Positions 44,659 to 61,735 of a stretch of 62,892 bases of DNA are shown here, one piece after another; position 1 is the stretch's first letter, and the number at the start of each line of letters is the position of its first letter. Made by a program: the position numbers and the translations under genes. The DNA is from an uncultured Sphingomonas sp. Its GTDB lineage: Bacteria; Pseudomonadota; Alphaproteobacteria; Sphingomonadales; Sphingomonadaceae. The notes beneath the pieces were generated by a model. It ran no database searches, was not told where the DNA came from, and was given only the letters and a program-made list of their open reading frames with translations. The stretch lies in the NCBI GenBank assembly GCA_913776045.1, contig CAJYOI010000051.1, positions 1 to 62,892 on the forward strand, read 5' to 3'.

Positions 44659-45253
44659 CCTTCTTTATAGCATTAAAACAAGCTCGGCCGGGCGTGCCCT
44701 TGCCAAAGTGCGTTCGGCTGTTGAGATCGTTTGGGTCCTGCTTGGGGTGCCTTCACGCGACGCGACGGAGTAATTGCCTCCAGACGACACCAACAAATTG
44801 TTGGGCTTTCGAATCTGGGTCTGCCAAAATCGGCGTTCGTGCCGATAGCCGCCACCATCTGATCTAAATTTGGTCGTTTACACTAGTTTAGCTGCCATCC
44901 GGAAGCGGACGTTAGTTCATGCAAAATCCTGCGGCTAGATGCCTCCGTGTCTGGAAACGGTGTGAATCTACTTACGCTAGACACGGGAATGATAAGGCAG
45001 CTCGCCATCTGGCTGCCGTGATCAGCACTCGATCATTCTAGCGAATGGACCTTTGACGAAAACCGTCGTAGCCGTTTTGTTGCGGGTACATTTTCAGCAC
45101 TGCCGAGATGCAATTTCTGCGCGCTTGCGCGCTTAAAGCGCAAATTTGTCGGTTCGACGGTAGTGGAGGAATGAGTGACGCGCTAAGGTGCGATGCCGGC
45201 GATTTAAAATGCGCACAGTCGAGCAGGAATATAGAGTCGGGGAGTGAGCGCTA
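44659..45253. other. Gap between tRNA-Thr and the DUF262 gene
   Basis: 595 bases of lower GC content than the core region with no supported gene. One eight-base inverted repeat, CCGTGTCT (44945-44952) with AGACACGG (44979-44986), was noticed. The promoter for the DUF262-HEPN operon should lie near the end; GGGGAG precedes ATG 45254. Confidence 0.4.
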
Positions 45254-46366: not shown

Positions 46367-46367
46367 C

Positions 46368-47114
46368 ATGCGCCCATTTATTGAGGAGTTCGAGAAACGA
46401 CGTAGTGAGGTGCGGCGCTATCTCGCCATCATTGTCATTGCAGAACGGCGGATGTCGACCGTCGAACGACGTCAATTCGATGACGAACTGAAAATCTTCC
46501 GGGCGGGCGCGCTTCTCGTGCTTTACAACGCGATAGAGGCATCCGCGCGGCTAGGTATCCTGGCGATTTACGATGACATTAGCAGCAGCTCGACTCTGTT
46601 CGATGATCTGCAAGAGACGTTGAGAATTCGCGTGCTAAGTGATTTTAGGCAACACGCCGGCGAAAAGAGCTATCCGCGCATTGTTCGCATCGCCGTAGAT
46701 CTCGTCAATGAAAGCCTTAACTCCGACAAACTTTTTTCTGGCAACGTGGACGCTAGAAAAATTCGTGACATGGCAAAGATATTCGGATTCGACACCTCGA
46801 GTCCTTTTTATTTGACACAAAACGGCCAAGATCTTTTGACGGTGAAGGCTCGCCGCCAAGATCTAGCGCACGGAAATGAATCGTTCTCCGAGGTTGGCAA
46901 GCAATACACGACACGGGATGTGCAAAGGATAGTTCGCTATTCACTTGCGTACATGGGCGCAGTTTTAAATCATATTGATCGCTACTTAGATGCTAAGGGC
47001 TACAGAGCGCCTACTTCGCCTAATGGTGATCAACAGCAGCAGTCTTCGCCACGTGTTGTACGATCGTGGCGCCAACGGCTTGCGCGAGCCTGGGCGGAAC
47101 TGCGTTCCCAATGA
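46368..47114 (+). CDS. HEPN-family protein, MAE_28990/MAE_18760-like
   Basis: A 248-residue protein. The N-terminal helices (EEFEKRRSEVRRYLAIIVIA) and the late motif VKARRQDLAHGNESFSEVGK (about 158-177) match the MAE_28990-type HEPN family, whose R-x4-6-H motif (RRQDLAH) is the ribonuclease site of HEPN toxins. The gap to DUF262 is one base, so the two are co-translated. The gene overlaps the convergent methyltransferase by 95 bases. The pair may form a toxin/effector module. Confidence 0.75.
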   Translation: MRPFIEEFEKRRSEVRRYLAIIVIAERRMSTVERRQFDDELKIFRAGALLVLYNAIEASARLGILAIYDDISSSSTLFDDLQETLRIRVLSDFRQHAGEKSYPRIVRIAVDLVNESLNSDKLFSGNVDARKIRDMAKIFGFDTSSPFYLTQNGQDLLTVKARRQDLAHGNESFSEVGKQYTTRDVQRIVRYSLAYMGAVLNHIDRYLDAKGYRAPTSPNGDQQQQSSPRVVRSWRQRLARAWAELRSQ

Positions 47115-48111
47115 GAATGCCAAGCCCGCGGAAAGTCGCTTCTTTAGCCTCTTTGACAAAGCGGTAGCTCGGTGGAAAAGACTGCAGGATCGCTGCTTCG
47201 CGCAGACTGATCGCCCTATCCTGGTCAGGATGGCCGAACCGCCCGTTGCCGAAGCCATAGCATTGCGTGGTGATCGTCGGCGCCGGCTTATCCCATTCCA
47301 TCCGTCCATACACGGCTGGGTAAGTCTCCCCCGTCTTTTTTGTGTGACAGGCTGCCCGTAAATCCTTCGGCCAATCGCGCCACGTGCCGCCAGCGCGCGA
47401 TGCCTTCATCCTTTTCATATTGGTTGCGCTGAGCCGACTAGCAACGTGGAGCGGATCCTTCGAGGGCGCGCTGCCCGCGGCGATCGGAGGCAACTGAGCG
47501 ATTACATCTCGAACGGTGAGAGGCTTGGTCGCATGCGTGGGCGTCGGCATATCGATCGACCCTAACCTTGAGGCCAGAAGAACAAGACGCTTGCGCTTTT
47601 GCGGTACGCCGAAATCGGTACAGCGAACCTCGTTCCAGACCACGTGATATCCGGCGCCCTCAAGCGCGGTGGTGAAGTTTTCCCACACCTCGCGAGCAGC
47701 AAGGCCGACGACGTTTTCCATCGTGACGATCTCAGGCAGCGACGCCAGCGCAAGATCACGGAAGCTTTCAAGAAGCTTCCACCGCCCGTCCTCGGACTTC
47801 CGGGTTTGCGAATAGGTCGAAAATGGTTGGCAGGGCGCGCAGCCAGCGAGAACCCGGATTTCGGCGTCGCCGAACCACTCCGCCAAGTCGTCCGCTGTAA
47901 CCTGCGCAACGTCCTTGCGAACGAATACGGCGTCGCAGTTTGTCTCAAAAGGGTAGCGGCACCGGGGGTCCATGTCGACGCCGGCCGCGATTTCAAGTCC
48001 TGCCATTCGGAGGCCGTAAGCTAAGCCGCCTGCTCCGCAAAAGAGGTCAACAGCAGCGATCCGACGCGGCAGAGGCTGCGGTTCGGCTTCGTGCCCACTA
48101 CCGTAGTTCAT
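47020..48111 (-). CDS. dcm: DNA (cytosine-5-)-methyltransferase
   Basis: A 363-residue C5-cytosine methyltransferase. Motif I DLFCGAGGLAYG (AdoMet), motif IV AGCAPCQPFSTYS (catalytic Cys), motif VI TMENVVGL, motif VIII QKRKRLVLLAS and motif X GNAVPPRLA are in order, with the target recognition region between about 230 and 290. Specificity cannot be read from sequence. Start: ATG 48111 (with GGGGA upstream) or TTG 48153. The neighbouring vsr gene suggests a product of T:G mismatches at its methylated site. Confidence 0.9.
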   Translation of the reverse strand: MNYGSGHEAEPQPLPRRIAAVDLFCGAGGLAYGLRMAGLEIAAGVDMDPRCRYPFETNCDAVFVRKDVAQVTADDLAEWFGDAEIRVLAGCAPCQPFSTYSQTRKSEDGRWKLLESFRDLALASLPEIVTMENVVGLAAREVWENFTTALEGAGYHVVWNEVRCTDFGVPQKRKRLVLLASRLGSIDMPTPTHATKPLTVRDVIAQLPPIAAGSAPSKDPLHVASRLSATNMKRMKASRAGGTWRDWPKDLRAACHTKKTGETYPAVYGRMEWDKPAPTITTQCYGFGNGRFGHPDQDRAISLREAAILQSFPPSYRFVKEAKEATFRGLGILIGNAVPPRLAQAVGATIVQHVAKTAAVDHH

Positions 48112-48208
48112 CGTTTCGTAAGCGTCCCCATAGGGAGGAAGCGTTAGCAGCAAGCTGATTCACAGGGGAAGGCCTCCCCAGTGCTATCGATCGGCTATTT
48201 TGCTCATG

Positions 48209-48619
48209 TCATCGATGTATCGCCTGACGAAGGGCCATTTCGACCCCCGCAGCGTCACGAGTTTCGCATTCCCAAAGCACAAGCACGTTCCAGCCCAACG
48301 CGGCGAGTTGCTCCGCCGCAGCCGCGTCCCGCGCCACGTTGGTTTCAAACTTGGCCTGCCAAAAGTCGGCGCGCGTCTTGGGCGTAGACGCCAGCCGGCA
48401 GCCCTCGTGCCGGTGCCAAAAGCAGCCGTGAACAAATACGGCTAGTCGATGCTTAGGAAACACCAGATCCGGACGCCCGGGTAAATCTCGTTTGTGTAGT
48501 CTGAAACGCAGGCCAAGGGAATGCGCGATGCGGCGAACGGCCAACTCTGGCTTGGTGTCTTTTCCGGTCACTCGCGACATCAGCCAAGAGCGATGAGTAG
48601 GTTTTAGGCTATCAGTCAT
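48209..48619 (-). CDS. vsr: Very short patch repair endonuclease Vsr
   Basis: A 136-residue nicking enzyme for T:G mismatches that arise when 5-methylcytosine deaminates. RSWLMSRVTGKDTKPELAVR, LHKRDLPGRPDLVFPKHRLA (catalytic Asp), VFVHGCFWHRHEGCRLA (His and zinc Cys), and NVARDAAAAEQLAALGWNVLVLWECE follow the family. It lies 56-98 bases upstream of the methyltransferase on the same strand. Confidence 0.94.
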   Translation of the reverse strand: MTDSLKPTHRSWLMSRVTGKDTKPELAVRRIAHSLGLRFRLHKRDLPGRPDLVFPKHRLAVFVHGCFWHRHEGCRLASTPKTRADFWQAKFETNVARDAAAAEQLAALGWNVLVLWECETRDAAGVEMALRQAIHR

Positions 48620-49140
48620 ACTGTAGCCAAACGCAGGACGGCGCGACTAGATCACTCCGCCCCTCCGCCCTGGCCTCGGAACTAACGTCAACTTTTAGGT
48701 GCATGGGATCAAAACTTAGCGGCGGCAATTCGCGTAGACGAGCGGCGGCCAATAGGAACAGTTAGGAGAGCGTTGAACGACGCAAGCTGGAGTGCTCCGC
48801 GACCGTTTGACCGCAGATGAACGGACGGCCAGATCCTGCCTTTGCTATCTAACTAGGACCAGCCGGCTCCTCACCCATGTCGACGATCGACGTTTCGTGG
48901 GTCTTGACCTGAATGGACAGCGGGGTACGTAGGCCTCGCAACCGGCTTCGGTGCATGGACGTACAAGTCATGCCGTGGCGCAGGTTCGCACTTATCGCTG
49001 GCAACCTGACGGGCACGTGATTGTCCGATTGAGGGCGCTTGCGTGTGCGACCGCGACCAACTAGCCGACGTTACACACGCAGCGCAGCCAGTCTTTTTGA
49101 AATCGCGCGGTCCAACTCGCGCGCTCATGAGAGACCGAAA
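48620..49140. other. Gap between vsr and a hypothetical gene
   Basis: 521 bases with no convincing gene. Frames that are open on either strand have no start signal or family resemblance. No repeats were noticed. Confidence 0.35.
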
Positions 49141-49503
49141 GTGCAGATTTTTCAGCTGAACAACGAAACCATCGCTTTGGGCCAGAAGGCTTTTGCGGCT
49201 TATCGCCGCGTGCTGTTCGATGTGCCCTCTTCGTCGACGCTCGCAAATTATCTGAAGCGGCCGACTGGCCCGCGAGCAATCGCCGGAGCGATTATGGCTG
49301 CGATTACAAACGGGTTTACTCGCGAGGAGGAAATCTGCTTGGCCGTAAGCCGCGCCACCGTGTCGAGCGCCAAAACGGTCAGGCGCGTTCTTAACGAGCT
49401 CACCGGCGATCACCAACGTGGTGGGCTGTGGAAGCGGTCTGAGGCAGGCGACTACTGCTTTGAGCCGCTGTCGGCCCGAGCGCCACGGCGATTGGCTTTC
49501 TGA
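49141..49503 (+). CDS. Hypothetical protein, possible winged-helix
   Basis: A 120-residue protein from GTG 49141 (MQIFQLNNETIALGQKAFAA). The middle (TREEEICLAVSRATVSSAKT, then VRRVLNELTGDHQRGGLWKR) reads like a winged-helix DNA-binding or resolvase-like fold with a beta hairpin, but I recognise no family. The frame is open further upstream without a good start. It lies alone in the island. Confidence 0.45.
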   Translation: MQIFQLNNETIALGQKAFAAYRRVLFDVPSSSTLANYLKRPTGPRAIAGAIMAAITNGFTREEEICLAVSRATVSSAKTVRRVLNELTGDHQRGGLWKRSEAGDYCFEPLSARAPRRLAF

Positions 49504-49583
49504 TTTCTGATGGGCAGGGCCGATTTGGTCCTGCCCACCCTTTACAAACGCGCGAGAACACGACAGACGGGGTAACTTATTAT

Positions 49584-49601
49584 GATATGAGACATCATAT
49601 C
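49584..49601. promoter_or_regulatory. Palindromic site GATATGA-GACA-TCATATC
   Basis: A perfect seven-base inverted repeat in an AT-rich stretch upstream of the structured element and lipoprotein gene. It could be an operator of an island regulator. Confidence 0.35.
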
Positions 49602-49654
49602 TACACGCGCAGACTATTGCGTCGGCCCTTCACTCTAGCCATGATCGCTGCGCC

Positions 49655-49849
49655 CCTCGTGAAAGCCGAGGGGTGGGGCGTAGGAACCCCTTCGCAATGT
49701 AACTCGGTCGCCAGTTCTGGAGGCCGGGTGGCATGCGCGCATGTCCAGCCGGTTCGCCGGTAAAGGCGCATGCGCTCTGTGCATTGCCAGGGTTCCTAAC
49801 ATCCGGCTTCGGCCGTCGCCCCGAGAGGTTACATAGGGGCGGCACGAGG
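49655..49849. ncRNA. Candidate structured RNA or palindromic element
   Basis: About 195 bases of nested inverted repeats. Pairs, outer to inner: CCTCGTG (49655) with CACGAGG (49843); CCCCT (49687) with AGGGG (49835); ATGTAACTCGG (49697-49707) with CCGA...GTTACAT (49821-49834); GCCGGGTG (49723) with CATCCGGC (49800); GCATGCGC (49731) with GCGCATGC (49766); and tip CCGG-TTCG-CCGG (49749-49760). An alternative, exclusive fold pairs GGGGCGTAGGAACCC (49675-49689) with GGGTTCCTA and CGCCCC around a CGGC-TTCG-GCCG hairpin. I know no family that fits. The strand is not known. Confidence 0.4.
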
Positions 49850-49969
49850 TTGAGCCGAAGGTCGCTCCGTCAGGGGGCGCCGCAAATGACAGCATCGAAA
49901 TCTAACGCCAGCGCACCCGCGTCGTGGCGCGATGCTGCGTGTCCTACACTCAACAACAGGAACAAGACT

Positions 49970-50293
49970 ATGAGAAAGAGAATGTTGCACTGCGCTCTGA
50001 TCGCCCTTGGCCTGAGCGTTAGCCTAGTCGCCTGCGGTAACCATCAAAGCTCAGCCGAGGCCGCGGTGCGAGATTCGCTGAAGGACCCCGAGTCGGCTCG
50101 CTTCGGTGAGTTCTACTTCAATGAGAAAACCGGCAAGGGCTGCCTCTCTGTGAACGCCAAAAACTCGATGGGCGGCTACACCGGAGATCAGCAGGCCTAC
50201 CTCCGCCTGAAGGATAGCACCTGGGAGGTGGAAGGCATCTCCGAAGTCTCGCATGAATCTTGCCGCAACACGTTTGCGGACACGACCTTCTGA
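49970..50293 (+). CDS. Small lipoprotein of unknown function
   Basis: A 107-residue protein with a lipoprotein signal (MRKRMLHCALIALGLSVSLVAC, lipobox LVAC at Cys22), so probably membrane-anchored. The mature part EAAVRDSLKDPESARFGEFY, GCLSVNAKNSMGGYTGDQQA resembles a common family of short proteins with DPxSAxF and NAKNSxGGYxG motifs found on plasmids and islands. Function unknown. Its TGA overlaps the next ATG. Confidence 0.7.
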   Translation: MRKRMLHCALIALGLSVSLVACGNHQSSAEAAVRDSLKDPESARFGEFYFNEKTGKGCLSVNAKNSMGGYTGDQQAYLRLKDSTWEVEGISEVSHESCRNTFADTTF

Positions 50294-50538
50294 TGGCCCG
50301 CTTCCTGTTTGCGCTCGTCGCCTTCGTCGCCGCCTTGGCCGTTCTGAAGATGATCCTCGTCGCCTTGGTGATCGCCGGGCTGATCTTTAGAACTAAGACC
50401 ACGATCGGCTTGCTTTTGCTGGGCGGGCTTGGGACGTTGACTGCGTCCTATCCCCTTGCCGGCGGCATCTGCATCGCGCTCGTGCTAGGCCTGATCGTGG
50501 CGTTCTACCGCCCATCAGCTGGCACAAGCGAAACCTGA
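50293..50538 (+). CDS. Small membrane protein
   Basis: An 81-residue protein with two or three hydrophobic helices (FLFALVAFVAALAVLKMILV, TIGLLLLGGLGTLTASYPLA, ICIALVLGLIVAFY) and almost no soluble part. It is translationally coupled to the lipoprotein (TGATG). No family recognised. A second small membrane protein of similar character follows the paralogous gene at 51584. Confidence 0.6.
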   Translation: MARFLFALVAFVAALAVLKMILVALVIAGLIFRTKTTIGLLLLGGLGTLTASYPLAGGICIALVLGLIVAFYRPSAGTSET

Positions 50539-50591
50539 CCTGACGACGTAAACAGGAAACACCCAGCGTTCGCGCTGATCGACACCATGCA

Positions 50592-50619
50592 GCCTCGGCC
50601 TACCGCCGGGGCTTTTTTT
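50592..50619 (+). terminator. Intrinsic terminator abutting the next gene's ribosome site
   Basis: GCCTCGGC-CTACC-GCCGGGGC stem (one G.T pair) followed by seven T. The ribosome-binding GGAG begins only about five bases later, so the hairpin could also act as an attenuator for the gene at 50634. Confidence 0.8.
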
Positions 50620-50633
50620 GTTTGGAGAAACAC

Positions 50634-51029
50634 ATGCGTATCATCGACAATTCAGAGCTGCTCGACCAGGCGCTCGATCCGCCTGATGGTACGGCGATAA
50701 GCCGCCTGTTGGCAGCTCGGGCAGACCTGATCGACCTCGCCACCTTCGTGATCGTCGAGGCGGGCGACACGCTGCAGGACATCGAAACCGCGGCTGGCGT
50801 CCCGATCGCAACCAACCTCGTCGATGGCGCGCGGTTCGGCGATCTGGATTTCGTCCCGTCCTTCGAGTGGGTCCAGGATCACGGCGATCTGTACGAGGCA
50901 CCGGTCATCCTCAGCGATGACGGGGCAGGGATCGTCTTTATCGTGCCGGACTGTCTCGGCGTCGATGCAACCTTGCTAGCCCTGCTCCGCGCCTATGCCG
51001 AGCCGGCAGATGCCAACAGCGCCGACTAA
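50634..51029 (+). CDS. Hypothetical island protein, paralogue of 51170-51574
   Basis: A 131-residue acidic protein. DLATFVIVEAGDTLQDIETA, TNLVDGARFGDLDFVPSFEW and VQDHGDLYEAPVILSDDGAG, IVFIVPDCLGVDATLLALLR are the parts shared with the gene at 51170. Similar proteins are common, unnamed, on alphaproteobacterial plasmids and integrative elements. Function unknown. GGAG lies seven bases before the ATG. Confidence 0.65.
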   Translation: MRIIDNSELLDQALDPPDGTAISRLLAARADLIDLATFVIVEAGDTLQDIETAAGVPIATNLVDGARFGDLDFVPSFEWVQDHGDLYEAPVILSDDGAGIVFIVPDCLGVDATLLALLRAYAEPADANSAD

Positions 51030-51117
51030 CCTCCGGCCTGTGCCACACAGCTAACTCAAACCCTCTGCCAGCGCGTCGATCTTAAACCTCACGCCGGCCG
51101 AACCCATCCGCAACCCA

Positions 51118-51150
51118 GCGTCCAGGCATCCCGCCTCGGGCGCTTTTTTT
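51118..51150 (+). terminator. Intrinsic terminator abutting the paralogue's ribosome site
   Basis: GCGTCCAGGC pairs with GCCT-C-GGGCGC (one bulge), followed by seven T ending at 51150. AAGGA begins about eight bases later. The layout repeats that at 50592-50619. Confidence 0.75.
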
Positions 51151-51169
51151 GTGTCCGAAAGGAATGCTC

Positions 51170-51574
51170 ATGCTCTCTATCGCTGGCCGCGAGGCCATTG
51201 AAGCCGCCCTTGCACGTCCGCTGCAGGCTCAGCTTCGCTCTATCCTACAAACCCGTGTTCAGCACCTCGAATGCCGACAGCCCGGCTTAGTCGAACTGAC
51301 CCACTTCGTCGTCATGCAGCGGGGTGACACGTCGGCCGATCTCAAAAGGACCATCGGCCTTACCCCGCTCGTAAACCCGATCGACGGCGCACGCTTCCGA
51401 TCTCCCGCCTTTCACCCGTGGTGGGACTGGCTTGGCCGCACCGGAGACTACTTCGAGGTGATCATCTCGGTCGGCAACGCGGGCTTCGCGTTCGTGCTGC
51501 TGATCGAAGATACGCTTGGGGTCGATCCGGAACTGCTCTGCCTCTGCCGTACCTACCTCAACGGCAAAGCGTAA
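51170..51574 (+). CDS. Hypothetical island protein, paralogue of 50634-51029
   Basis: A 134-residue protein. ELTHFVVMQRGDTSADLKRT, NPIDGARFRSPAFHPWWDWL, RTGDYFEVIISVGNAGFAFV and EDTLGVDPELLCLCRTYLNG align along the whole length with the gene at 50634 (shared DGARF, GDxxE, LGVDxxLL). ATG 51170 is six bases after AAGGA. Function unknown; the pair arose by duplication. Confidence 0.65.
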   Translation: MLSIAGREAIEAALARPLQAQLRSILQTRVQHLECRQPGLVELTHFVVMQRGDTSADLKRTIGLTPLVNPIDGARFRSPAFHPWWDWLGRTGDYFEVIISVGNAGFAFVLLIEDTLGVDPELLCLCRTYLNGKA

Positions 51575-51583
51575 GGGGCGGAG

Positions 51584-51853
51584 ATGCGACTCTTCGGATA
51601 CATCATCGTCGCGGCCTTGGTGCTTAGCGTCCTTCAACATGCCATCGCGGCGCTACTGATCGTCGGCGGACTGCTGCTGCTATGGGGCATCCTGTTCCGG
51701 CCGCGGGAGGTCTTCGGCTTTGCAGCGTTTTGCTTCCTGTCCGCTATCGTTCAACGACATTTCGTCGTCGTCCTATTCCTCTGCGCTGTCGTAGCCCTTG
51801 CCGGTAGCGGGCGGCGGGCGGTGCGCAGGAGGAGAGATGAAGAAAATGCTTAG
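51584..51853 (+). CDS. Small membrane protein
   Basis: An 89-residue protein with three hydrophobic stretches (YIIVAALVLSVLQHAIAALL, IVGGLLLLWGILF, FVVVLFLCAVVALAGSG) and a basic tail. It follows the preceding gene by nine bases, mirroring the lipoprotein/membrane-protein layout upstream. No family recognised. Confidence 0.55.
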   Translation: MRLFGYIIVAALVLSVLQHAIAALLIVGGLLLLWGILFRPREVFGFAAFCFLSAIVQRHFVVVLFLCAVVALAGSGRRAVRRRRDEENA

Positions 51854-52107
51854 GGGGATTGACGTCCACTGATTCGCCGTGCAGATGGTTCGCCGCTCGG
51901 CAATTTTAGGCAGCATGCTGACCCCCGCCGAGAAGTCCTCCGCAAGTGCATTGAGGGCGAGTTCGAACTGAACACGCCACACTTGCGTCGAGCCTAAATC
52001 GCTCTCTTCGCTATGAGAACAGTGTCAGTTCGGCCCGCGCATCGCCAGCGTTGGGACGCTCTTTGACATGCCGGCGGCGCTAGGCCGGCCAGAATACGAA
52101 GACAACA

Positions 52108-52500
52108 ATGACTACCACACACCACGAATCCGCCCTCCTCGTCGCTCACATCGAAGAGCGCTGGGGCCTTCCGACACCCCCCAACTCATCAGATAGCGAG
52201 GTGTCCGGACCCTATCACCTTAACGGTATGGGACCGGTCTATCTGCAATTTGACCGGGGATGCCAGGAATGGAAGGCGGTTCCCGCGAAGGTCACGACCC
52301 GGATGAACTACCTTCAGCCGGGCCGGTGGCCGAAGCGCGATCGCGAGGCGGTGAACGAGGCGCTGCAGGAGTTGCGACACATGGCTCCGCCCTGCGTCTG
52401 TGACGACCGCAGCGTCATCACGTTCATGGGGTATCGCTTCCTTTGGGAATTCCACGCCGAGGCACGGAACTGGACCCTGACCCCTATCGCCGACCGCTGA
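52108..52500 (+). CDS. Hypothetical protein
   Basis: A 130-residue soluble protein (MTTTHHESALLVAHIEERWG, VYLQFDRGCQEWKAVPAKVT, FMGYRFLWEFHAEARNWTLT). No family recognised; composition and codon use look like real coding sequence. It lies between the paralogue cluster and the VapE gene. Confidence 0.5.
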   Translation: MTTTHHESALLVAHIEERWGLPTPPNSSDSEVSGPYHLNGMGPVYLQFDRGCQEWKAVPAKVTTRMNYLQPGRWPKRDREAVNEALQELRHMAPPCVCDDRSVITFMGYRFLWEFHAEARNWTLTPIADR

Positions 52501-52802
52501 CGAATGAGCCGCCGTCACCATCCGGGTGGCGGCGGGATTACTGGTATGGCGCTTGAGAATAAAACGACGGTTTTACAGCCACTTACGAACTCATTGAATT
52601 AACGTTGATTGGGTAAGCGAAGTGCCTTCATCGTAGTGCCGTCTTTTCAAACATGCAGAGGCACTTTGAGCGTTGTGCATCCCGGGCGTGGGATGCGGCA
52701 CTTCCACCTGTCGCGCACCGCCGCTTCACGGCTGGAATACCTCCAACAAGTACGGCCGCAATGAAGCTTTTGAAACCATGATTACGAACGAAATACACTA
52801 CC
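52501..52802. other. Gap upstream of the VapE-type gene
   Basis: 302 bases with a mildly AT-rich centre (52560-52620) that may hold the promoter. No gene or repeat is seen. Confidence 0.35.
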
Positions 52803-54095
52803 ATGACACCAACGACTGCACCCACCGAGGTGCCAGCGCCGCAGCCTGAAATCGCTGGGCGCAAAGCCGACGATCGCCTCGATCCAGCCGGCTTCCCGCA
52901 TCCGCCCCGCCAAGGCGGCTCTACTATCCCGACGACGATCGAGAACGTCGGCCACCTGCTCGCGGAGACTGGCCATACCGCGAACTTCAATGTCATCACG
53001 AAGCAGCACGACATCAGGGATCGGGCAGGTAACGCCGTCGACATGAACCGGCTTATCAGCCTGGGCGTGCTCAACGGCGTATCGACCGGCCTGTTGCCCG
53101 ACTTCGTCAATTCCATCGCGAGATCAAACCCGTGCAATCCGGTCGCAGACTGGATCAGGTCCAAAGCCTGGGATCGCGAGGATCGACTTCCGGCCCTTTA
53201 CGCTACCGTCAAAACGCCGGACGACTACCCAGCGGATCTGAAGCGTGCGTTGCTCAAGCGGTGGCTGCTTTCCGCTACCGCCGCAGCGTTGCTCAAAGAT
53301 CGACGGTTCCGCGCCCGCGGTGTCCTCACCTTTCAGGGGCCGCAGGGGATCGGCAAGACGACGTGGATCGCCAACCTGATGCCGGCGGGCGAACTGCGCA
53401 ATCGATCGATCAAGCTCGACCACCACATGGACGGAGCGAACAAGGATTCGATCCTAAGCGCCATCGCCCATTGGGTGACAGAGATCGGCGAACTGGACGG
53501 CGCCTTCAAGCGAGACGTCGCCCGGCTGAAGGGCTTCCTGACCAACGACTGTGACAAGGTCCGGCCGCCCTACGGACGCGCGTCGGTCGAATTTGATCGT
53601 CGAACGGTGTTCGCCGCGACGGTCAACGACGATGCCTTTCTCGTCGACCCGACCGGCAACAGCCGATGGTGGACCATCGCGGTAGACAAACTCGACTACG
53701 ACCACGGGATCGACATGCAGCAGCTGTTTGCGCAGCTAGCAGTCAATTTCGAAGCCGGTGACCAATGGTGGCTCACCCCTGAGGAGGAGCAGCAGCTTGC
53801 CGCCTACAACGTCCGGCACCGGGCCGTCAGTGCGATCGCCGAACGTGTTCGCGATCTGGTCGGCGATGTTCCTATGGGCACGTTCACCGGGAACTACCAG
53901 ACCGCTATCGAGGTGCTGGCGGGTCTCGGAATCAAATACCCGTCCAACGCGCAATGCAAGGAGTGCGGGGCGGTGCTCCGCGAACTGCTGGGCGAGCCCA
54001 AGCGCGTGAACGGACGATCGAAGTGGCGCATTCCGCTGCCCACCCGCGTAACGATCGACGGTGTCCCCGCGGTCGGGGCGGACGAGGAATACTAA
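52803..54095 (+). CDS. VapE/virulence-associated E family ATPase
   Basis: A 430-residue protein. VLTFQGPQGIGKTTWIANLM (Walker A GPQGIGKT, about 179-186), DHHMDGANKDSILSAIAHWV, TEIGELDGAFKRDVARLKGF and LTNDCDKVRPPYGRASVEFD, then FAATVNDDAFLVDPTGNSRW are the VapE domain (superfamily 3-like helicase). Such proteins act as replication helicases of satellite phages and islands. There is no N-terminal primase. It is followed by a nested palindrome and the integrase. Confidence 0.85.
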   Translation: MTPTTAPTEVPAPQPEIAGRKADDRLDPAGFPHPPRQGGSTIPTTIENVGHLLAETGHTANFNVITKQHDIRDRAGNAVDMNRLISLGVLNGVSTGLLPDFVNSIARSNPCNPVADWIRSKAWDREDRLPALYATVKTPDDYPADLKRALLKRWLLSATAAALLKDRRFRARGVLTFQGPQGIGKTTWIANLMPAGELRNRSIKLDHHMDGANKDSILSAIAHWVTEIGELDGAFKRDVARLKGFLTNDCDKVRPPYGRASVEFDRRTVFAATVNDDAFLVDPTGNSRWWTIAVDKLDYDHGIDMQQLFAQLAVNFEAGDQWWLTPEEEQQLAAYNVRHRAVSAIAERVRDLVGDVPMGTFTGNYQTAIEVLAGLGIKYPSNAQCKECGAVLRELLGEPKRVNGRSKWRIPLPTRVTIDGVPAVGADEEY

Positions 54096-54505
54096 GCCCC
54101 GGCTAGGTGGGGGCAGGGGGCGGCAAAAAACGGCGACTTCCGCAAGGGCGATAGCCGATCGCTACGCGGAATTGGCCCTTTTGCCCCCACCTCCACCCAC
54201 CACACTCACCTGAGAAACCAGCGTCTGCCGTCAATTGAGCGCCGCGGACCCGGACCCGGAGCGACCCGCCAAGGTTGCTCCAGCGTCCGACGGCGACGAT
54301 CGCGTCGCTCGCGGACCTCAACCCCATGCGGCGCTCCGAGCTTCATCGAGCGGACAGTGGCGGAGGCGGCCCAGAGCGAGCCCGATCTGCTGCCACACCG
54401 CCCCAATTCGGGGCCTCCCATCTCCAACCCATCGCGGCCCTGCGACGTGCCTCAGCGCGCCGCTCTGCGTCCGCACGCGCAACACACAATCAAAAAGGAA
54501 CTCAC
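54096..54505. repeat. Nested inverted repeats between vapE and integrase
   Basis: GGTGGGGGCA (54106-54115) and TGCCCCCACC (54182-54191) enclose TTCCGC (54138) / GCGGAA (54166), AAGGGC (54144) / GCCCTT (54175) and GCGAT (54148) / ATCGC (54158). The 10-mer GGTGGGGGCA recurs after the integrase at 55689-55698. It may be an origin, a recombinase arm site or a transcript end. The rest of the gap to 54505 has no supported gene. Confidence 0.45.
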
Positions 54506-55660
54506 ATGCCCAAACGTAAACTGGACGCCGCATTCTGCCTCACGGCGCATTGCGAGCCCGGAAAGAAGAAGACCGACTGGTACGACGAGATCGTCCAGGG
54601 TTTCATGATCGAATGCCGTCAGAGCGGCGGCAAGACCTACTACCTCAGCTTCAACGAAGGGAAGAAGCGCAACACCATCAAGATCGCCGCGTACGGCGAC
54701 GTCACTTTCGACCAGGCGAAGAAAAAGGCGCAGCAGCTGCGCTCCAAGCTCGTTCTCGGCGAAGACCCCGCTGCCGAAAAGAAAGCGGCACGCGCCGTGC
54801 CGACCTATGGCGCGCTGGCCGATCAACACGTCGCGCATGCCCGCACATACATGAAGAGCATTAAAACCCTCGAAGGGTACATGAAGCGCATTCGGAAGCG
54901 CTGGGGCAAGGTCCGACTGACCGATATCCGGCAGCAGGACGTCGCCGCGTGGCTGGCGGAGCTGCGTCGAGAAGGGCTTGCGCCGGCCACCGTCGAGAAG
55001 ACGCGCATCATCATGAACCGCTCGTTCCAGCTCGGGGCGCAGTGGGAAGTGCCCGGCACCGATCGAAACCCGGTGCGTGGTGTGCCGCGGGTCAAGTTCA
55101 GCAACGCGCGTGAGATGTACATCAATGCCGAGGAAGCCGAACGGCTCATCACGGCCGCGGAAGGATCACGCAACACGCAGCTCGCCGACATCATCCGGTT
55201 GCTGCTGCTGCTCGGCATGCGTGTTTCCGAGCTTCTCTCGATGCGGTGGGAGAACATCGACACCGAGAAGCGCCGGCTGTTCATCCCGACCTCGAAAACG
55301 GGGCGGTCACGGACATTGCCACTGCCGCAAGCCGCGGTCGAGGTGATCGAGCGGCAGCCAAAGCCGGGAGGAGCGGTTTATCTCTTCCCGAACCCCCGGA
55401 ACCCCAAGCGGCACCTGACTACGATCAAGCATGGTTGGCAGGCGGCACGAGAGGCTGCCGGACTAAAAACGCTTAGAATCCATGATCTTAGGCACTCTGC
55501 GGCGAGCGCGTGGATCAATAACGGCGTGGGGCTGGCCACCGTCGGCAAGCTCCTTGGGCACGCCAATCTCGCCTCTAGCGCTCGATACAGTCACCTCGCA
55601 GACGACACACTGATGTCTGCGGTCGAGGCGGGCGCCGCCAAGCTCAAAATCGCCGCCTGA
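54506..55660 (+). CDS. int: Tyrosine-type site-specific integrase
   Basis: A 384-residue phage/island integrase. The N-terminal arm-binding domain (YDEIVQGFMIECRQSGGKTY, KIAAYGDVTFDQAKKKAQQL) is of the DUF4102/Arm type, followed by a SAM-like core-binding domain (YGALADQHVAHARTYMKSIK) and the catalytic domain with Arg239 (LGMRVSELLS), His326 and Arg329 (HDLRHSAAS), His352 (LGHANL) and Tyr361 (ARYSHL). All core catalytic residues are present, so it should be active. AAGGA precedes ATG 54506. Confidence 0.94.
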   Translation: MPKRKLDAAFCLTAHCEPGKKKTDWYDEIVQGFMIECRQSGGKTYYLSFNEGKKRNTIKIAAYGDVTFDQAKKKAQQLRSKLVLGEDPAAEKKAARAVPTYGALADQHVAHARTYMKSIKTLEGYMKRIRKRWGKVRLTDIRQQDVAAWLAELRREGLAPATVEKTRIIMNRSFQLGAQWEVPGTDRNPVRGVPRVKFSNAREMYINAEEAERLITAAEGSRNTQLADIIRLLLLLGMRVSELLSMRWENIDTEKRRLFIPTSKTGRSRTLPLPQAAVEVIERQPKPGGAVYLFPNPRNPKRHLTTIKHGWQAAREAAGLKTLRIHDLRHSAASAWINNGVGLATVGKLLGHANLASSARYSHLADDTLMSAVEAGAAKLKIAA

Positions 55661-56030
55661 TCAACTCGCCCTCACCCGGTCTTTGCTGGGTGGGGGCATC
55701 TACCTAATATTTTTTCGGATTTACGTATGACACATGAACACGACGCGAACGGGCTATCCGTCGGGAAGCGCAACGATATTTTCCGTTCCCTGCGCGAGTT
55801 GAAGCAGGAGCATCAGACAACAATGAACAAGGACGTGCTGGCTGAACTGCTGATCGGCGCAGCGATAACGAGGGCTTCGACAGCGGCACGCGGATCACTG
55901 GCACCCTTGCCAAATTGGAAATGAACCGACGACATGCAGGCATCATCATGGCCCGATTAACAGGCATCCGATGGGCTCGCGAAGATGACGGACGGTACGC
56001 GTTGACCGAACACGCCACGCTCGCCCTAAC
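55661..56030 (+). other. Short remnant coding sequences downstream of the integrase
   Basis: After the 10-mer GGTGGGGGCA (55689) a 65-codon frame 55727-55924 (MTHEHDANGLSVGKRNDIFR, LAELLIGAAITRA) and a second out-of-frame stretch from 55921 (MNRRHAGIIMARLTGIRWAR) look like decayed genes; the latter runs into the IS fragment. I cannot assign either. Confidence 0.35.
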
Positions 56031-56286
56031 GCTTCCACCGGTTGTACAGCGTCGTGTGAGGACCGTAGGCGCTGGGTGCATCTCGCCAGCGCAGCCCATT
56101 GCGGTTGACGAAGACGATGCCGCTCAGCACCCGCTGGTCATCCACCCGAGGCTTGCCGTGGCTCTTGGGGAAGAACGGTCGCAGCCGCTCCATCTGATCG
56201 TCCGTCAGCCAAAACAGGTCACTCATCCCAGTGTCCTTGCGGAGCCTGAATCAGATCGCGACGCTCACATCAATGGGTCCTAACCC
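56031..56286 (-). mobile_element. Truncated IS5-family element
   Basis: About 256 bases homologous to the right part of the element at 5041-5875. It retains one terminal repeat (GGGTTAGGA inward from 56286, TA outside) and the transposase N terminus (56226 to 56026: MSDLFWLTDDQMERLRPFFP to RDAPSAYGPHTTLYNRWKR), then homology stops abruptly. It differs at many positions from the other copy, so it is an older insertion of a related element. Confidence 0.8.
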
Positions 56287-57007
56287 TAGGCTGTGGTCGG
56301 GCGGTGACCACAGTGGGACGTCGATGAAGACGATCTAAATGGACGAGTCTGGCTACGCGGGAGGCGATGTTGTGAGCTCTAATTTAGGCTTCTTCGTCGT
56401 TGCAACGTCGAATGCGTTAACGATGAAGATGGTCGGCAATTCCGCAAAGCGCTCGAGCGCGATCCGCGGTTCGCGTCGATCCTGCGGCCGCGCGAGGTCA
56501 AATTGGGGCTGTCATAAGCGATTGCGAAAAGCATTAGGCAGAGCGTCTCCGACTTTGTTCGACGACCCGCACTCCCCTGTGTTTCGTTCGAAGTCCGTCC
56601 TCCGCTCGCAGCGCACGCTCCCGGTAGATTTGCGCGGGACCTGTTGTTGCGCTCGGTTCCATGACCTATCGCTGAGTTGTCGAATACCTTGAATTTTAAG
56701 ATGTTTAGACTTGTTCCAATTCTCCTATCGACAGACTGCATTCTGCAAAAATTTCGGCCATCCCAGGATCTAAAAGATAATGATCCAGAATGGTCCAATC
56801 GAGGTTTTATGACTCGATCTCCCAGTTCCGCCATGCTCTACATGTAGCTAGCGTGAGAGAGGATGCCTTGTGTAAGGTTAGGTGAGAAGTATCAGCTTGG
56901 TGCTGTATGGTGCGCACGAGCGCCTACACTGAATTAACGGTGAAGGTACTATAATCCATTGATTAACAGATACATTTAACGGAAAAATGATTGCGTGGGG
57001 GGGTGTC
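56287..57007. other. AT-richer gap with a possible relaxase remnant
   Basis: 721 bases with no intact gene. One frame ending at TAA 56515-56517 reads QFRKALERDPRFASILRPRE, then VKLGLS, which resembles the C terminus of plasmid relaxases; it is short and has no start. The last part (56900-57007) is AT-rich and probably holds the promoter of the bacteriocin locus. Confidence 0.4.
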
Positions 57008-58249
57008 ATGGAAACCGTTGCGCCAATGTTTCGTCAAGAAGTTGCGGAGCATCGGGCGGAAAGATTGCAAGGGACAGTAAGAATATTTATACCACAATCT
57101 TGGCAAATCATTGGATACACAATGATGGTATTTGCGATTGTGGTTTTGGTATTTGCTTTTCAAGCGTCTTACGCTCGTGTCGAGACAGTATCTGGATCCG
57201 TTGTGCTGGACAAAGGAGTAGCTACGATCCTGCCATCTCGACCCGGCGTGGTAACTGCGCTGAAAATTAAGGACGGAACGTCTGTCAGCCTCGGAGACAG
57301 GTTAGTAGAAGTCCGCTCGGAAGAAGGCTTCAGTCGGGCCGAAACGGGGTCCGAGCGAATCGCCGCAGCACTATCCGAGCAAGACCGGCGGCTGGCAAAT
57401 CAAGCATCTTTTATCGCAGCCGCTGCAGTCACCGAGCGCGCCCGGTTGGGAGCCGAAATCGTCGGTACTCAAAACGAGCTGGCAGACCTGAGTTCTCAGA
57501 TCGATGTTCAGCACCGGCTCGTCGAGGTTGCCGCTAACGAATTTTCCCAAGTTCAACGTCTGGCCTCCTCGGGTTTTATCAGTCGACGGGATTTAGAAGC
57601 GCGTGAAGCAGCACTGCTCTCAAGGCGGCAACAACTTTCACAACTTCGTCAGCTCGAATCGCTTAAGAACGCAGACCTGGCCAAGGCGCGTTTGTCGATA
57701 GAGCAGGCGGTATCTTCCGCGCAAGCACAGGTCGCGGGCGTGGAATCTGGCCGGGCGGCGTTGAGGCAGCAGTTGGCTCAAGCCGAAATTGCTCGCGGTT
57801 ACTGGATACTTTCGCCTGTGAGCGGCACCGTTACTGCGCTAACGGCGCGAGTAGGGCAAACCGCAACCCCCTCTCAACCGCTCATGGCGATCATCCCAAC
57901 AGACGCTACCGCCCGAGCTGAACTTTATGTTCCTTCAAGTGCGGCCGGCTTTCTCTCGATCGGGCAGGAGGTCCACATCGGACTGGACGCATTTCCCTTT
58001 CAACGGTTCGGAACAGTGCGGGGCAGGATTGCCCAAGTTTCTACTACGGCAATTCCACGATCTGGACCCGACGGGCGCGTCGCGCCGGTCTATCTTGTGA
58101 CAGCTGAACTCGACGTGCCATACGTAACCGCCTTCGGCCGCAGGCAGCGCGTGTCCCCGGGAATGGGGCTGACCGCGCGCATTGTCGCAGAAAAGCAGAA
58201 CCTTATACACTGGCTCTTCGAGCCGATTTACGCGGTAGCCAAGCGATGA
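57008..58249 (+). CDS. HlyD-family periplasmic adaptor of a bacteriocin exporter
   Basis: A 413-residue membrane-fusion protein. One transmembrane helix near the N terminus (GYTMMVFAIVVLVFAFQASY), then the lipoyl half motif PSRPGVVTALKIKDGTSVSL, a long coiled coil (about 100-260, RIAAALSEQDRRLANQASF to RAALRQQLAQAEI), the second lipoyl half YWILSPVSGTVTALTARVGQ and a beta-barrel domain. It links the ABC exporter to an outer membrane channel. ATG 57008 follows GGGGGGTGTC; ATG 56987 is an alternative. It overlaps the exporter gene by four bases. Confidence 0.88.
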   Translation: METVAPMFRQEVAEHRAERLQGTVRIFIPQSWQIIGYTMMVFAIVVLVFAFQASYARVETVSGSVVLDKGVATILPSRPGVVTALKIKDGTSVSLGDRLVEVRSEEGFSRAETGSERIAAALSEQDRRLANQASFIAAAAVTERARLGAEIVGTQNELADLSSQIDVQHRLVEVAANEFSQVQRLASSGFISRRDLEAREAALLSRRQQLSQLRQLESLKNADLAKARLSIEQAVSSAQAQVAGVESGRAALRQQLAQAEIARGYWILSPVSGTVTALTARVGQTATPSQPLMAIIPTDATARAELYVPSSAAGFLSIGQEVHIGLDAFPFQRFGTVRGRIAQVSTTAIPRSGPDGRVAPVYLVTAELDVPYVTAFGRRQRVSPGMGLTARIVAEKQNLIHWLFEPIYAVAKR

Positions 58250-60474
58250 GCGTTAGCTTGAACACGTCTCTGTTCGGGCGGCCTAGCATGCGTCTTATAC
58301 GACAAACGGAAGTGTCCGAGTGTGGGCTCGCAAGTCTCACGATGATAGCAAACTTCCACGGAATGAAAGTGGATTTGGGCACGCTGAGGCGCTCCTTCAG
58401 CCCGTCCCTGCGTGGCGCACCGCTAAAAAGTCTTATGAACACCGCGGATCAGCTTGGCTTCTCGTCACGCGCCGTCAAACTGTCGATCGAAGACATCGGT
58501 AATCTAGCTGTCCCCGCAATCTTGCATTGGGACATGAACCATTATGTCGTACTTGAGCGGGTGATCGGGGCTAGCTCATTCGGTCAAGCCTCGATCAAGG
58601 CCTTGATCCACGATCCTGCGGGGCAGTCGAAATGGCTGCCTTTGGCCGAACTGTCGAAACATTTCACAGGCGTCGCTCTCGAGCTGACCCCGGGTGACGA
58701 CTTCCAGCCGTCCGTCAAGCGCCAACGCCTCAGCTTGAAACAACTCTGGTGGAAGGTTCACGGTCTTAAGCGCGCGTTTGCTCAAACGCTCGTTTTGAGC
58801 GTTCTCATGCAAGGCTTCGTGCTAGCCTCGCCATATTACATGCAGGTTGCCATTGATCGCGTACTTCCTGCCCAGGATCGCGACCTCCTTGTCGTGCTTG
58901 CGCTCGGCTTTGGCCTGTTCGCCATTATAAACGTAGTGAGTTCACTGCTTCGGTCCTTCGTGCTGCTCTCGGCGGGTACCTCGCTGAGTTTCGGTATCGC
59001 GACAAATATCACGCGTCGTCTCTTTCGTTTGCCCGTTGACTGGTTCGAGAAGCGACACGTCGGTGATGTGCTCTCTCGATTCCAATCGATCGCGCCGATA
59101 CAGCAGGCGCTAACGCAAGGTGCGGTGGCCGTACTCATCGACGGGCTGCTCGGTACAGTAATTCTGGCGGTGATGTTTCTCTATAGCGCGGCGCTGACAG
59201 CAGTGGCACTGGCGGCCTTCGCTGTTTACGCCACGGCCCGGTACGCGGCATTCTCATTTCAGCGTGAGGCGCAGGAGAGCGCCATGATCGCTCGTTCCAA
59301 AGAACAATCGATGATGATCGAGAGCCTCCGAGGCATCGTGACCCTGCGACTCTTAAATCGAGAAAATACTCGACATGCTCAATGGCAAACGCGGCTGAAC
59401 GATGCCGCAAATGCGGATATAACCGCTAGCAAGATTGGAATTTGGGTAAGCACCGGCAACACCCTAATATTTGGTATGGAAGCTATATTGGCTACCTACC
59501 TCGCTATCGGTTTTGTGATCGATGGAGGATTTAGCGTAGGCATGGTGTTCGCCTATTTATCCTATAAAACCCAATTTATACAGCGAGCAAACTCCCTAAT
59601 CGATCAAGCTATCGGCTTCCGCATGCTGGGACTTCATCTTGAGAGACTCGCTGACATAGCTATGAGCGATGAGGACAATAGCTTCAGGTCGCTCCCTTCA
59701 GGTATAGATAGAAGGTTTGCTGGCAAAATTGAGCTTAGAGACGTCCATTTCAGATATAGCCCGACCGACCGGCCTGTACTGAGCGGAGTAAATTTGACCG
59801 TCGAGCCCGGCGAACACATAGCCATAACTGGTCCATCTGGTGGTGGCAAAAGCACCCTCGTCAAGATAATTCTTGGCTTGCTCGAGCCAACGGAGGGGGC
59901 CGTCCTGATTGACGGCATACCGTTAAATCAATTCGGCTATAAAGAATATCGCGATCAAATCTCGGCGGTTTTGCAAGATGATAATATATTTGCGGGATCG
60001 ATCGCTGACAATATCGCTCTATTCGAAGATACAGTATTAGCAGACGAAGTTATTACTGCGGCTAACGCTGCCGCGATTCACGATGACATTTATAATATGC
60101 CGATGAGATACGAAACTCTGGTAGGTGATATGGGGTCGAGCCTGTCCGGGGGACAGCGACAAAGAGTCCTACTCGCGCGCGCCCTATACAGAAAACCCAA
60201 GGCTTTAGTTCTCGACGAGGGTACATCTCATTTGGATGTTGCCCACGAGAGGCTCGTAAATCGATCGGTATCTGAAAGAAATATAACAAGGATCATAGTA
60301 GCGCACCGTAAGGAAACGATCCAGTCAGCCGAGAAAGTATATGCTCTCGCACATGGCGTATTGCTGGACTGCAGCAAAATTATTGCAAGCCAACCCAGTA
60401 TCAGTGCAGTTGGTAAAGATGCAGCCAGTTTGGTTGAGAAAATGCGCGCTCACGGTATCGACTCTATAAAATAA
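58246..60474 (+). CDS. Peptidase C39-containing bacteriocin ABC exporter
   Basis: A 742-residue PCAT-type exporter that cuts the leader at a double glycine and exports the peptide. The N-terminal C39 protease has Cys26 (TEVSECGLASL), His99 (MNHYVVLE) and Asp123 (HDPAG). The membrane domain (about 170-450) has the usual helices. The ATPase has Walker A GPSGGGKST (529-537), signature LSGGQRQR (from 633), Walker B KALVLDEGTSHLD and an H-loop in IIVAHRK. All catalytic residues are present. Confidence 0.94.
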   Translation: MSVSLNTSLFGRPSMRLIRQTEVSECGLASLTMIANFHGMKVDLGTLRRSFSPSLRGAPLKSLMNTADQLGFSSRAVKLSIEDIGNLAVPAILHWDMNHYVVLERVIGASSFGQASIKALIHDPAGQSKWLPLAELSKHFTGVALELTPGDDFQPSVKRQRLSLKQLWWKVHGLKRAFAQTLVLSVLMQGFVLASPYYMQVAIDRVLPAQDRDLLVVLALGFGLFAIINVVSSLLRSFVLLSAGTSLSFGIATNITRRLFRLPVDWFEKRHVGDVLSRFQSIAPIQQALTQGAVAVLIDGLLGTVILAVMFLYSAALTAVALAAFAVYATARYAAFSFQREAQESAMIARSKEQSMMIESLRGIVTLRLLNRENTRHAQWQTRLNDAANADITASKIGIWVSTGNTLIFGMEAILATYLAIGFVIDGGFSVGMVFAYLSYKTQFIQRANSLIDQAIGFRMLGLHLERLADIAMSDEDNSFRSLPSGIDRRFAGKIELRDVHFRYSPTDRPVLSGVNLTVEPGEHIAITGPSGGGKSTLVKIILGLLEPTEGAVLIDGIPLNQFGYKEYRDQISAVLQDDNIFAGSIADNIALFEDTVLADEVITAANAAAIHDDIYNMPMRYETLVGDMGSSLSGGQRQRVLLARALYRKPKALVLDEGTSHLDVAHERLVNRSVSERNITRIIVAHRKETIQSAEKVYALAHGVLLDCSKIIASQPSISAVGKDAASLVEKMRAHGIDSIK

Positions 60475-60543
60475 CCTGCATAGTCTCCTTAAGGCGGCGG
60501 ATAATACTTACGTCGTCAAATTAAAATATGAAGGGAGTATGCT

Positions 60544-60783
60544 ATGATTCATGGTCTCACGATTGCTGAAATTGAGTACGTTTTTGGAGGCGACGGTCCG
60601 GTGCAGCCCTTCTGTCCGGAGGGTTTTCGCGTTGGTAGCATCAACTACGACGGACAAGGGAATGTCACGGGGTGGCAGTGCCTCAATAACTCGGACGGAT
60701 CGTCTTGGTACGGATCGGTTTCGAGCTGGGTGTCCTGGCTACGGGACACCATTGTCGATATGTTGACCTCAGTACTGTCGTAA
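60544..60783 (+). CDS. Double-glycine bacteriocin precursor peptide (putative)
   Basis: A 79-residue peptide, 69 bases after the exporter gene and preceded by GAAGGGA. The first 16 residues, MIHGLTIAEIEYVFGG, form a double-glycine leader with the usual hydrophobic positions (L5, I7, I10, V13) before the GG cut site. The predicted 63-residue core is glycine/serine/tryptophan-rich, with Cys24 and Cys46 (precursor numbering) able to form one disulfide, and an amphipathic C-terminal helix (SSWVSWLRDTIVDMLTSVLS). No modification enzyme is nearby. It is probably an unmodified class II-type microcin or bacteriocin. Confidence 0.75.
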   Translation: MIHGLTIAEIEYVFGGDGPVQPFCPEGFRVGSINYDGQGNVTGWQCLNNSDGSSWYGSVSSWVSWLRDTIVDMLTSVLS

Positions 60784-60805
60784 CCTCGACGTAGGAGAGG
60801 CGGGG

Positions 60806-61735
60806 GTGTCGACATCGAATTTGCTGGTGCCCTCGCCAATTCGTCGGATGGCTAGGCGTGGTTTCGTGGCGCTAATGTGCGTTGTTATTGCAGGAATTTG
60901 TTTGATGGGGCTGTCGAAACCGAAGCGCTTGCAGGCGCCGTCAAGAGTCGAGCCGTTCGTGATGTCTGATGGCCGTCCTTGGTTGGCGGTTCGATTAGGG
61001 GCGCGGAAATTCATGGCTCTTGCCGACACTGGATCGACGCAGCCTTTTCTTGCTCCGGAGATTGTCAAACTCGTCGATCACTTACCGGTCGGCGAGACGG
61101 AAGTTAGAACACCCTTCGGCGTGCGCTCGGCGGCAAAGGTCCAGCTATCCGCCATGGAAATAAATGGGCGACGCTTTGAAAAGCCGGTAACGATTGTTGA
61201 AAGACGAGCTGCCGATCAAGTCGATCCAATCATTGGCGCAAGTATCCTTTTTTCCTCAAGTAATACTTACTTTTCGCAAGACGGGATCTTATTCGATATT
61301 GATGAGTCCTTGCTATCATCGTGTCAGCATGTTCCGGTCGTTATTGATTTAACGGGGAATACCTATCAGTCGCCTTTGGCTGCGGTATACTTTCAAATAA
61401 AAATCAACGGCGAGATACAAAAGGTCTTCTTTGATACCGGTCAGTCTGAGCCGCTCGTTGGTACCGCGAGGTCGAGGCGGAGTGATCGTCCCTTCGCATG
61501 GGGACGGCCTGGGTTGCTTGTGCATCCCTCTAGCGGACGTGTCCGTTTAAGCTGGTCTCAACCGAGCCTTGGTAGGTTGGAAATTGGGAATCAAGAGCTC
61601 GAACTCGAATACGTGCGTCAGTCTGGTTTGGACCACGAGGACGCAGATTTTTTCATGGGAGCCGGAATCTTCAAACATTACTCGATCCTGGTTGTGCCGC
61701 GAAAGGGGCGTGCTTGCTTCATCCCAGTGCAGTGA
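60806..61735 (+). CDS. Membrane-anchored aspartyl protease-like protein
   Basis: A 309-residue protein from GTG 60806 (AGGAGAGGCGGGGG upstream), 22 bases after the peptide gene. One transmembrane helix (about 20-36, FVALMCVVIAGICLMGL) anchors it. Two aspartic-protease motifs are visible: ALADTGSTQPF (Asp74) and VFFDTGQSEPL (Asp210), so both lobes of a pepsin-like fold may lie in one chain; later blocks resemble retropepsin-like bacterial proteases. In this locus it might process, activate, or neutralise the peptide; immunity is another possibility. That role is inference. Confidence 0.7.
   Translation: MSTSNLLVPSPIRRMARRGFVALMCVVIAGICLMGLSKPKRLQAPSRVEPFVMSDGRPWLAVRLGARKFMALADTGSTQPFLAPEIVKLVDHLPVGETEVRTPFGVRSAAKVQLSAMEINGRRFEKPVTIVERRAADQVDPIIGASILFSSSNTYFSQDGILFDIDESLLSSCQHVPVVIDLTGNTYQSPLAAVYFQIKINGEIQKVFFDTGQSEPLVGTARSRRSDRPFAWGRPGLLVHPSSGRVRLSWSQPSLGRLEIGNQELELEYVRQSGLDHEDADFFMGAGIFKHYSILVVPRKGRACFIPVQ

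Follow-up and report, generated by a model that had tools for sequence, protein, structure and literature searches.

Class II microcins, as described in the part of PMC10233263 available to us, have leaders of 15–18 residues ending in GG or GA and cores of 60–90 residues whose charge is mostly neutral or anionic, and their immunity genes typically lie immediately beside the pre-microcin gene. The immunity proteins are inner-membrane proteins of 51–216 aa that interact with or block the peptide; the same source also reports Bacteroides double-glycine (GG) peptides without an immunity protein. For proteases in bacteriocin immunity, the closest precedent is that of the CAAX proteases, which also call for caution: according to the accessible text of PMC9298176, some are reported to confer immunity, those in bacteriocin loci also process or signal, and one such protease, SilX, appeared to act on a signal peptide, its deletion giving no sensitivity. 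A second cut by serine proteases and metalloproteases is known for several lanthipeptides (PMC10885120, in part). In the Alphaproteobacteria, the Cdz system of Caulobacter (cdzABCD, cdzI) combines a type I exporter with small secreted peptides, and its immunity protein is a predicted three-helix membrane protein, CdzI (PMC5380434, in part).

In the window, by which we mean the whole analysed stretch of 62,892 nt, an entire contig of a probable sphingomonad, four genes share one direction at 56987–61735 and encode, in order, an HlyD-type adaptor, a C39-ABC exporter, a double-glycine peptide and an aspartyl protease with two DTG motifs. Their arrangement corresponds to a class IIa microcin locus in which a protease takes the immunity position. 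As far as the partly available sources describe class IIa microcins such as microcin V (CvaC/Cvi/CvaB/CvaA plus TolC), the locus shares with them a leader of 16 residues, a core of 63 residues and a charge of −4, a C39-ABC exporter and membrane-fusion protein beside the precursor with the TolC-type protein elsewhere, and a gene for a membrane protein (here with a predicted anchor) directly adjoining the precursor. It differs in that the immunity position is filled by a protein of 309 residues with a predicted two-lobed aspartyl protease fold, and in that the peptide matches no Pfam or NCBIfam family at E values up to 1. A bacteriocin reading of the locus is plausible, under which the peptide would be antibacterial.

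The initial annotation had also suggested a partial resemblance to Cdz. What stands of this is the combination of an exporter and a small peptide; the comparison is otherwise loose, the window having one peptide rather than two, with two cysteines and without an extended GxxxGxxxG zipper (a single GxxxG, GFRVG, is read from the sequence). As the peptide lacks a glycine zipper and the locus lacks CdzI, a Cdz homologue was rejected; the open reading frames of 60474–61735 include no three-helix gene of the CdzI type. The observation that no conventional immunity gene is visible was borne out, no other recognised immunity gene being present in the operon.

Gene order and genomic setting

The adaptor gene (56987..58249, plus strand) encodes 420 aa with a match to PF13437 (HlyD_3, E 2.4e-16) and one N-terminal hydrophobic segment, the best hydrophobic 19-mer of the first part starting at residue 41. 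Its stop overlaps by 4 nt the start of the exporter gene (58246..60474, plus strand), which encodes a C39 peptidase-containing ABC exporter of 742 aa with matches to PF03412 (Peptidase_C39, E 2.9e-28), PF00664 (ABC_membrane, 1.1e-37) and PF00005 (ABC_tran, 7.7e-32). A gap of 69 nt separates the exporter from the peptide gene, which is preceded by AAGGGAG, and 22 nt separate the peptide from the protease gene, a gap containing GGAGAGG, a likely ribosome-binding site. The four genes look like one operon, which would be read as a single transcript. The initial annotation had described a complete C39 exporter with an HlyD adaptor, a 79-residue peptide with a GG leader and a two-cysteine core, and a membrane-anchored aspartyl protease-like protein with DTG at residues 74 and 210. 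We recovered all of these, the exporter and adaptor with Pfam support, the peptide at 60544–60783 and both protease motifs, the anchor and fold of the protease being predicted; the adaptor gene is likewise where it had been placed, and the start given for it, 57008, is an internal ATG, the gene as located here starting at 56987.

Residues Cys26, His99 and Asp123 of the exporter are presumably the C39 triad. The first two are invariant in 16 aligned sequences including the window, and the consensus of that alignment has Asn at the position of Asp123. Relatives at 61–67% identity occur at 16 other places in 397 genomes of the family, one of them with an internal stop. The NHLP/NHLM class of bacteriocin exporters was rejected on score (TIGR03796, 474.6 bits against a cut-off of 853.3). 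Elsewhere in the same genome there are 23 domain matches to the TolC-type outer-membrane efflux family (OEP, PF02321). A second C39 exporter of the genome (L084, G000:C41:44587-46635) is 42% identical to the first; the opposite strand there encodes a GG peptide of 54 residues, rich in Lys, Pro and Cys, and L080 has a peptide resembling it.

The operon probably lies on a mobile island of mosaic composition. In the profiled part of the window (40000–62892), GC content is 0.67–0.70 in the 4 kb before a tRNA-Thr gene (44583–44658), 0.50–0.64 after it and 0.50–0.57 over the operon. Between the tRNA and the operon are genes for a GmrSD_N protein, a HEPN protein (HEPN_MAE_28990), a C5 cytosine methylase, a VapE-like protein and a tyrosine integrase (54275–55660), and between the integrase and the operon there is a fragment of an IS4/5-family transposase (56026–56226, minus strand; DUF4096, E 1.4e-16). 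Exact copies of the tRNA end of at least 14 nt were not found elsewhere in the window. The GmrSD_N protein is identified as NsnA in PADLOC (E 1.4e-47), and 44583–55660 may hold a defence trio within the likely mobile island.

Probable exported peptides of the window and related loci

The peptide gene (60544–60783, plus strand) encodes a precursor of 79 aa, comprising a 16-residue double-glycine leader (60544..60591) that matches the leader motif and a 63-residue core (60592..60783, stop codon included) with a net charge of −4 and cysteines at positions 24 and 46 of the precursor. The leader motif, L-x(2-4)-E-[LIMV]-x2-[VILA]-x-G-[GA] with M, I or F also allowed in the first position, was composed after the leaders had been read and so describes rather than predicts. 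It was counted around related exporters drawn from the best 80 of 206 relatives (233 stretches) in GTDB species and from 35 in genomes of the family; with the window these gave 116 loci with an exporter match, 106 of them unique, hence 105 unique loci besides the window, which was left out of the count. Within 2.5 kb of exporter and adaptor the motif occurs 81 times in 466 kb, a few of these plainly by chance, as against 10 times in 963 kb farther off, making it about 17 times denser near the exporters. At least one match is present at 46 of the 105 loci and none at the other 59. This enrichment, together with the match of the window leader, indicates that the exporter very probably accepts the product of the small frame as a substrate. 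The related exporters at L054, L059, L060, L061 and L064 have dissimilar GG peptides, among which one type of core, for instance TEGPNGEGCTEP, recurs.

A profile of the peptide matched 73 of the 397 family genomes at E values up to 1, strong matches being confined to the window and to one other genome, G142 (about 1e-31), with the next best at 0.001. Of 28 further loci matched by the profile, 14 were inspected by eye; frames with suitable cysteines were present at seven, none of them with a GG leader. In PHROGs there were two weak, partial matches to the G142 peptide and no match for the other four proteins searched. The window peptide has no significant amphipathic C-terminal helix (equalled in 207 of 500 shuffles), and that of the G142 peptide is significant (0 of 500).

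The protease and its relatives

The protease gene (60806..61735, plus strand, GTG start) encodes 309 aa with Pfam matches to gag-asp_proteas (3.6e-07) and Asp_protease_2 (8.8e-06). It is predicted to be a membrane-anchored, two-lobed aspartyl protease of clan AA, the structural model having one membrane helix (residues 12–33) followed by a pepsin-like fold, and its topology would be N-in/C-out by the positive-inside rule. In both the first DTG (residues 74–76, 61025..61033) and the second (residues 210–212, 61433..61441), the D and G are invariant in 19 of 19 aligned sequences. When the two lobes were compared by profile, only the DTG region aligned (probability 1.3%), so that the second lobe rests on its motif, on a Pfam match in the related G142 protein and on the predicted fold.

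Close relatives of the protease are present in three of 396 genomes of the order: that of the window, G142 and G129. Among 201 genomes of the window genus and 60 of the G142 genus, one each has the protease, in both cases the one already named, and the genus of G129 consists of a single genome. Searches of viral contigs and plasmids found no relative, nor did alignment to genome contigs and viral contigs. Despite an identity of 24–25%, both catalytic motifs are kept, the second as DTG in all three and the first as DTG in the window and G142 and as DSG in G129, which argues for catalysis. The proteins of G142 and G129 show no visible signal peptide or membrane helix.

In G142, a GG peptide of 86 residues (L010:1130-1390) ends 89 nt before the protease gene. 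At the motif density found far from exporters, and computed afterwards, the chance of a leader frame within 300 bp on the same strand is about 0.003; it rises to 0.02 when both strands are considered out to 1 kb. The window and G142 peptides share a leader matching the motif, CP[DE]G and a second cysteine; their cores alone are weakly similar, the score being reached by 55 and 63 of 5000 shuffles and ranking 2 of 538 cores. The pair lies about 0.4 Mb from the only C39 match of that genome, which has a leader frame of its own nearby (L052), indicating that peptide and protease can move without an exporter. The initial annotation had looked to conservation of the leader and cysteines, which G142 supports, and to recurrence of peptide and protease beside exporters, where the outcome is divided: the pair does recur in G142, but a close relative of the protease is absent from all 105 other unique exporter loci, and of the three family members only that of the window adjoins an exporter.

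G129 has an intact protease gene standing alone (L086:8022-8819, minus strand). Its genome has no PF03412 match, no peptide was seen in the 26 kb around the protease, and it was not seen among the 73 listed genomes matching the peptide profile. The gene is flanked by two direct copies, 62 nt long and 81% alike, of the 3′ end of a peroxiredoxin gene (L086:7904-8981) and takes up the greater part of the interval between them. This arrangement resembles a one-gene insert, such as a resistance gene on its own might form.

More distant clan AA proteases were sought with a six-sequence profile and located within 4 kb of three of the 105 exporters, all on the exporter strand: L137 (Sphingomonas sp. 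BK345), L065 (same genome as L110, a Sphingorhabdus) and L081 (G163). Two of these three were part of the profile, and Pfam detects all three independently. A fourth locus, L143, has two such proteases at 4.8 and 5.6 kb. With a background of at most 1.36 per Mb, an upper bound from 178 domain matches in 41 genomes (130.85 Mb), the number expected within 4 kb is 1.01 for both strands (P 0.08) and 0.50 for the same strand (P 0.015), an excess weakly above background that is suggestive only. The order in L137 is protease, GG peptide, HlyD and exporter, with protease and peptide in the same direction, the protease having two DTG motifs and an apparent signal peptide; its plasmid relatives were not beside exporters in the two examined of 31 records. 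The L081 protein has DNG and DLG in place of DTG. In L110, a broken 3′ piece of a second exporter (98 residues, 72% identical to the local exporter) precedes the protease by about 130 nt, which gives the impression that the two genes once adjoined each other. The stretch L110:12225-17739 contains a GG peptide and then a gene for an S9 prolyl-oligopeptidase-like protein overlapping the peptide end by 4 nt; after the broken exporter piece comes a two-lobed aspartyl protease with PDZ and TPR domains. The L110 and L137 proteins were rejected as close members of the window subfamily (phmmer E 0.26 for L110; L137 unlisted at E up to 5).

The closest comparison for a membrane protease beside a bacteriocin gene, with immunity implicated in some cases (PMC9298176, in part), is with the CAAX/Abi (CPBP, Rce1-like) proteases, which are multipass metalloproteases, whereas the window protein is predicted to be a single-pass aspartyl protease of pepsin fold. 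Bacterial clan AA aspartyl proteases considered for comparison are RimB/RloA, APRc, shewasin and a Bacteroides protein (9iy9). RloA differs in that it is described as a dimer with one N-terminal DTG motif that cleaves polyglutamate (PMC12239564, in part), a text from which the word bacteriocin is absent. Among the literature matches listed, which exclude most subscription papers, no title or abstract describes an aspartyl protease in a peptide-export locus.

Possible roles of the protease

We tentatively favour, at somewhat short of even chances, a reading in which the operon serves to produce and export a peptide like the class IIa microcins, and the protease protects the producer by degrading it. 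The C39 domain of the exporter would remove the 16-residue leader after the GG, and the 63-residue core, probably with one disulfide, would leave by way of HlyD and an outer-membrane channel of TolC type, the gene for which lies elsewhere, bypassing the periplasm. The protease, held on the inner membrane and presumably facing the periplasm, would then cleave mature peptide re-entering through the outer membrane; an anchor facing the periplasm implies that the peptide is missed on its way out and met on its way back. Self-protection is favoured because the protease gene adjoins the peptide gene (22 nt) in a position typical of class II immunity genes, because the operon has no other recognised immunity gene, because both catalytic motifs are kept, and because the pair is independent of an exporter in G142 and the protease an orphan in G129; the CAAX proteases reported to confer immunity offer a precedent. 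Against it, 309 aa exceeds the 51–216 aa quoted for microcin immunity proteins in the available part of PMC10233263, the three close family members include only one at an exporter, aspartyl proteases of this broad type are commonplace in the genomes concerned (the 178 matches above), and the orphan in G129 may serve some other purpose. The other functions of CAAX proteases and the Bacteroides GG peptides that lack an immunity protein also count against it. The main difficulty is that the proteases of G142 and G129, in which no signal or helix is visible, would be cytoplasmic and so would not fit a periplasmic mechanism shared by all; as genuine immunity factors they would have to work within the cell. 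A more far-reaching version, that the pepsin-fold protease is a dedicated proteolytic immunity factor that travels with the peptide apart from the exporter and also spreads alone as a one-gene resistance module in non-producers, is doubtful, if conceivable. If true, degradation by a dedicated enzyme of pepsin fold would add a further mode of self-protection, the orphan in a genome that makes no such peptide would represent naturally occurring resistance, a native function would be assigned to one of many uncharacterised bacterial two-DTG proteases, and sphingomonads would be expected to export a large and varied range of GG peptides.

The main rival to immunity is maturation, in which the protease would cut the peptide again after removal of the leader by C39 and so release the active form. 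There are documented cases of a second processing step following a C39 exporter (PMC10885120, in part), and the closeness of the two genes would suit it, as would the L137 locus, where the gene before the peptide, with the same orientation, encodes a protease that has two DTG motifs and an apparent signal peptide. However, the tripartite exporter skips the periplasm, the expected location of the protease domain, a protease without an exporter or adjoining peptide is kept in G129, and the words aspartic and aspartyl are absent from the main text of that review of leader proteases; we consider maturation unlikely. It is quite improbable that a common sphingomonad aspartyl protease came to stand behind the peptide by chance, as unrelated cargo of a mosaic island. 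That the protease gene follows at only 22 nt and probably has its own ribosome-binding site speaks against this, as does the return of peptide-then-protease at an unrelated place in G142. So, too, do six other 15-kb stretches around aspartyl proteases (in G000, G142 and G163) that have no GG-leader frame by a motif that found the peptide in four of five positive loci (missing L137), a weak control given that about 0.9 would be expected at far-field density. Chance association is nonetheless consistent with the mosaic character of the island, with the background density of such proteases and their weak excess near exporters, with the plasmid relatives of the L137 protease and with the lack of close relatives at the 105 other exporter loci.

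Finally, the exported peptide might be no toxin at all, acting instead as a signal or cell-surface component that the protease removes or recycles. Proteases tune signal peptides. Some GG peptides, such as ComC, do signal (PMC10885120, in part), the CAAX protease mentioned above appeared to act on a signal peptide (PMC9298176, in part), and related loci have very diverse peptides, some with several per exporter. Given that no sensor kinase, regulator or receptor is found among the four genes, and that in our judgement the diversity of the cores suits toxins better, we regard this role as very doubtful.

Other enzymes accompany related exporters. Another membrane protease, an Rce1-like CAAX protease, is encoded behind a related C39 exporter in Kordiimonas laminariae (L131:12869-13591). 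In Sphingobium scionense (L143:7407-8753), a 49-residue GG-leader peptide and a 388-residue protein that is ATP-grasp-like by eye (no Pfam match at E 0.01) are encoded just before HlyD. Directly behind the related C39 exporter of a metagenome-assembled genome labelled Gammaproteobacteria (L138:12160-14617) are genes for a JmjC-type protein and a YcaO cyclodehydratase, and the exported peptide of this locus is possibly modified.
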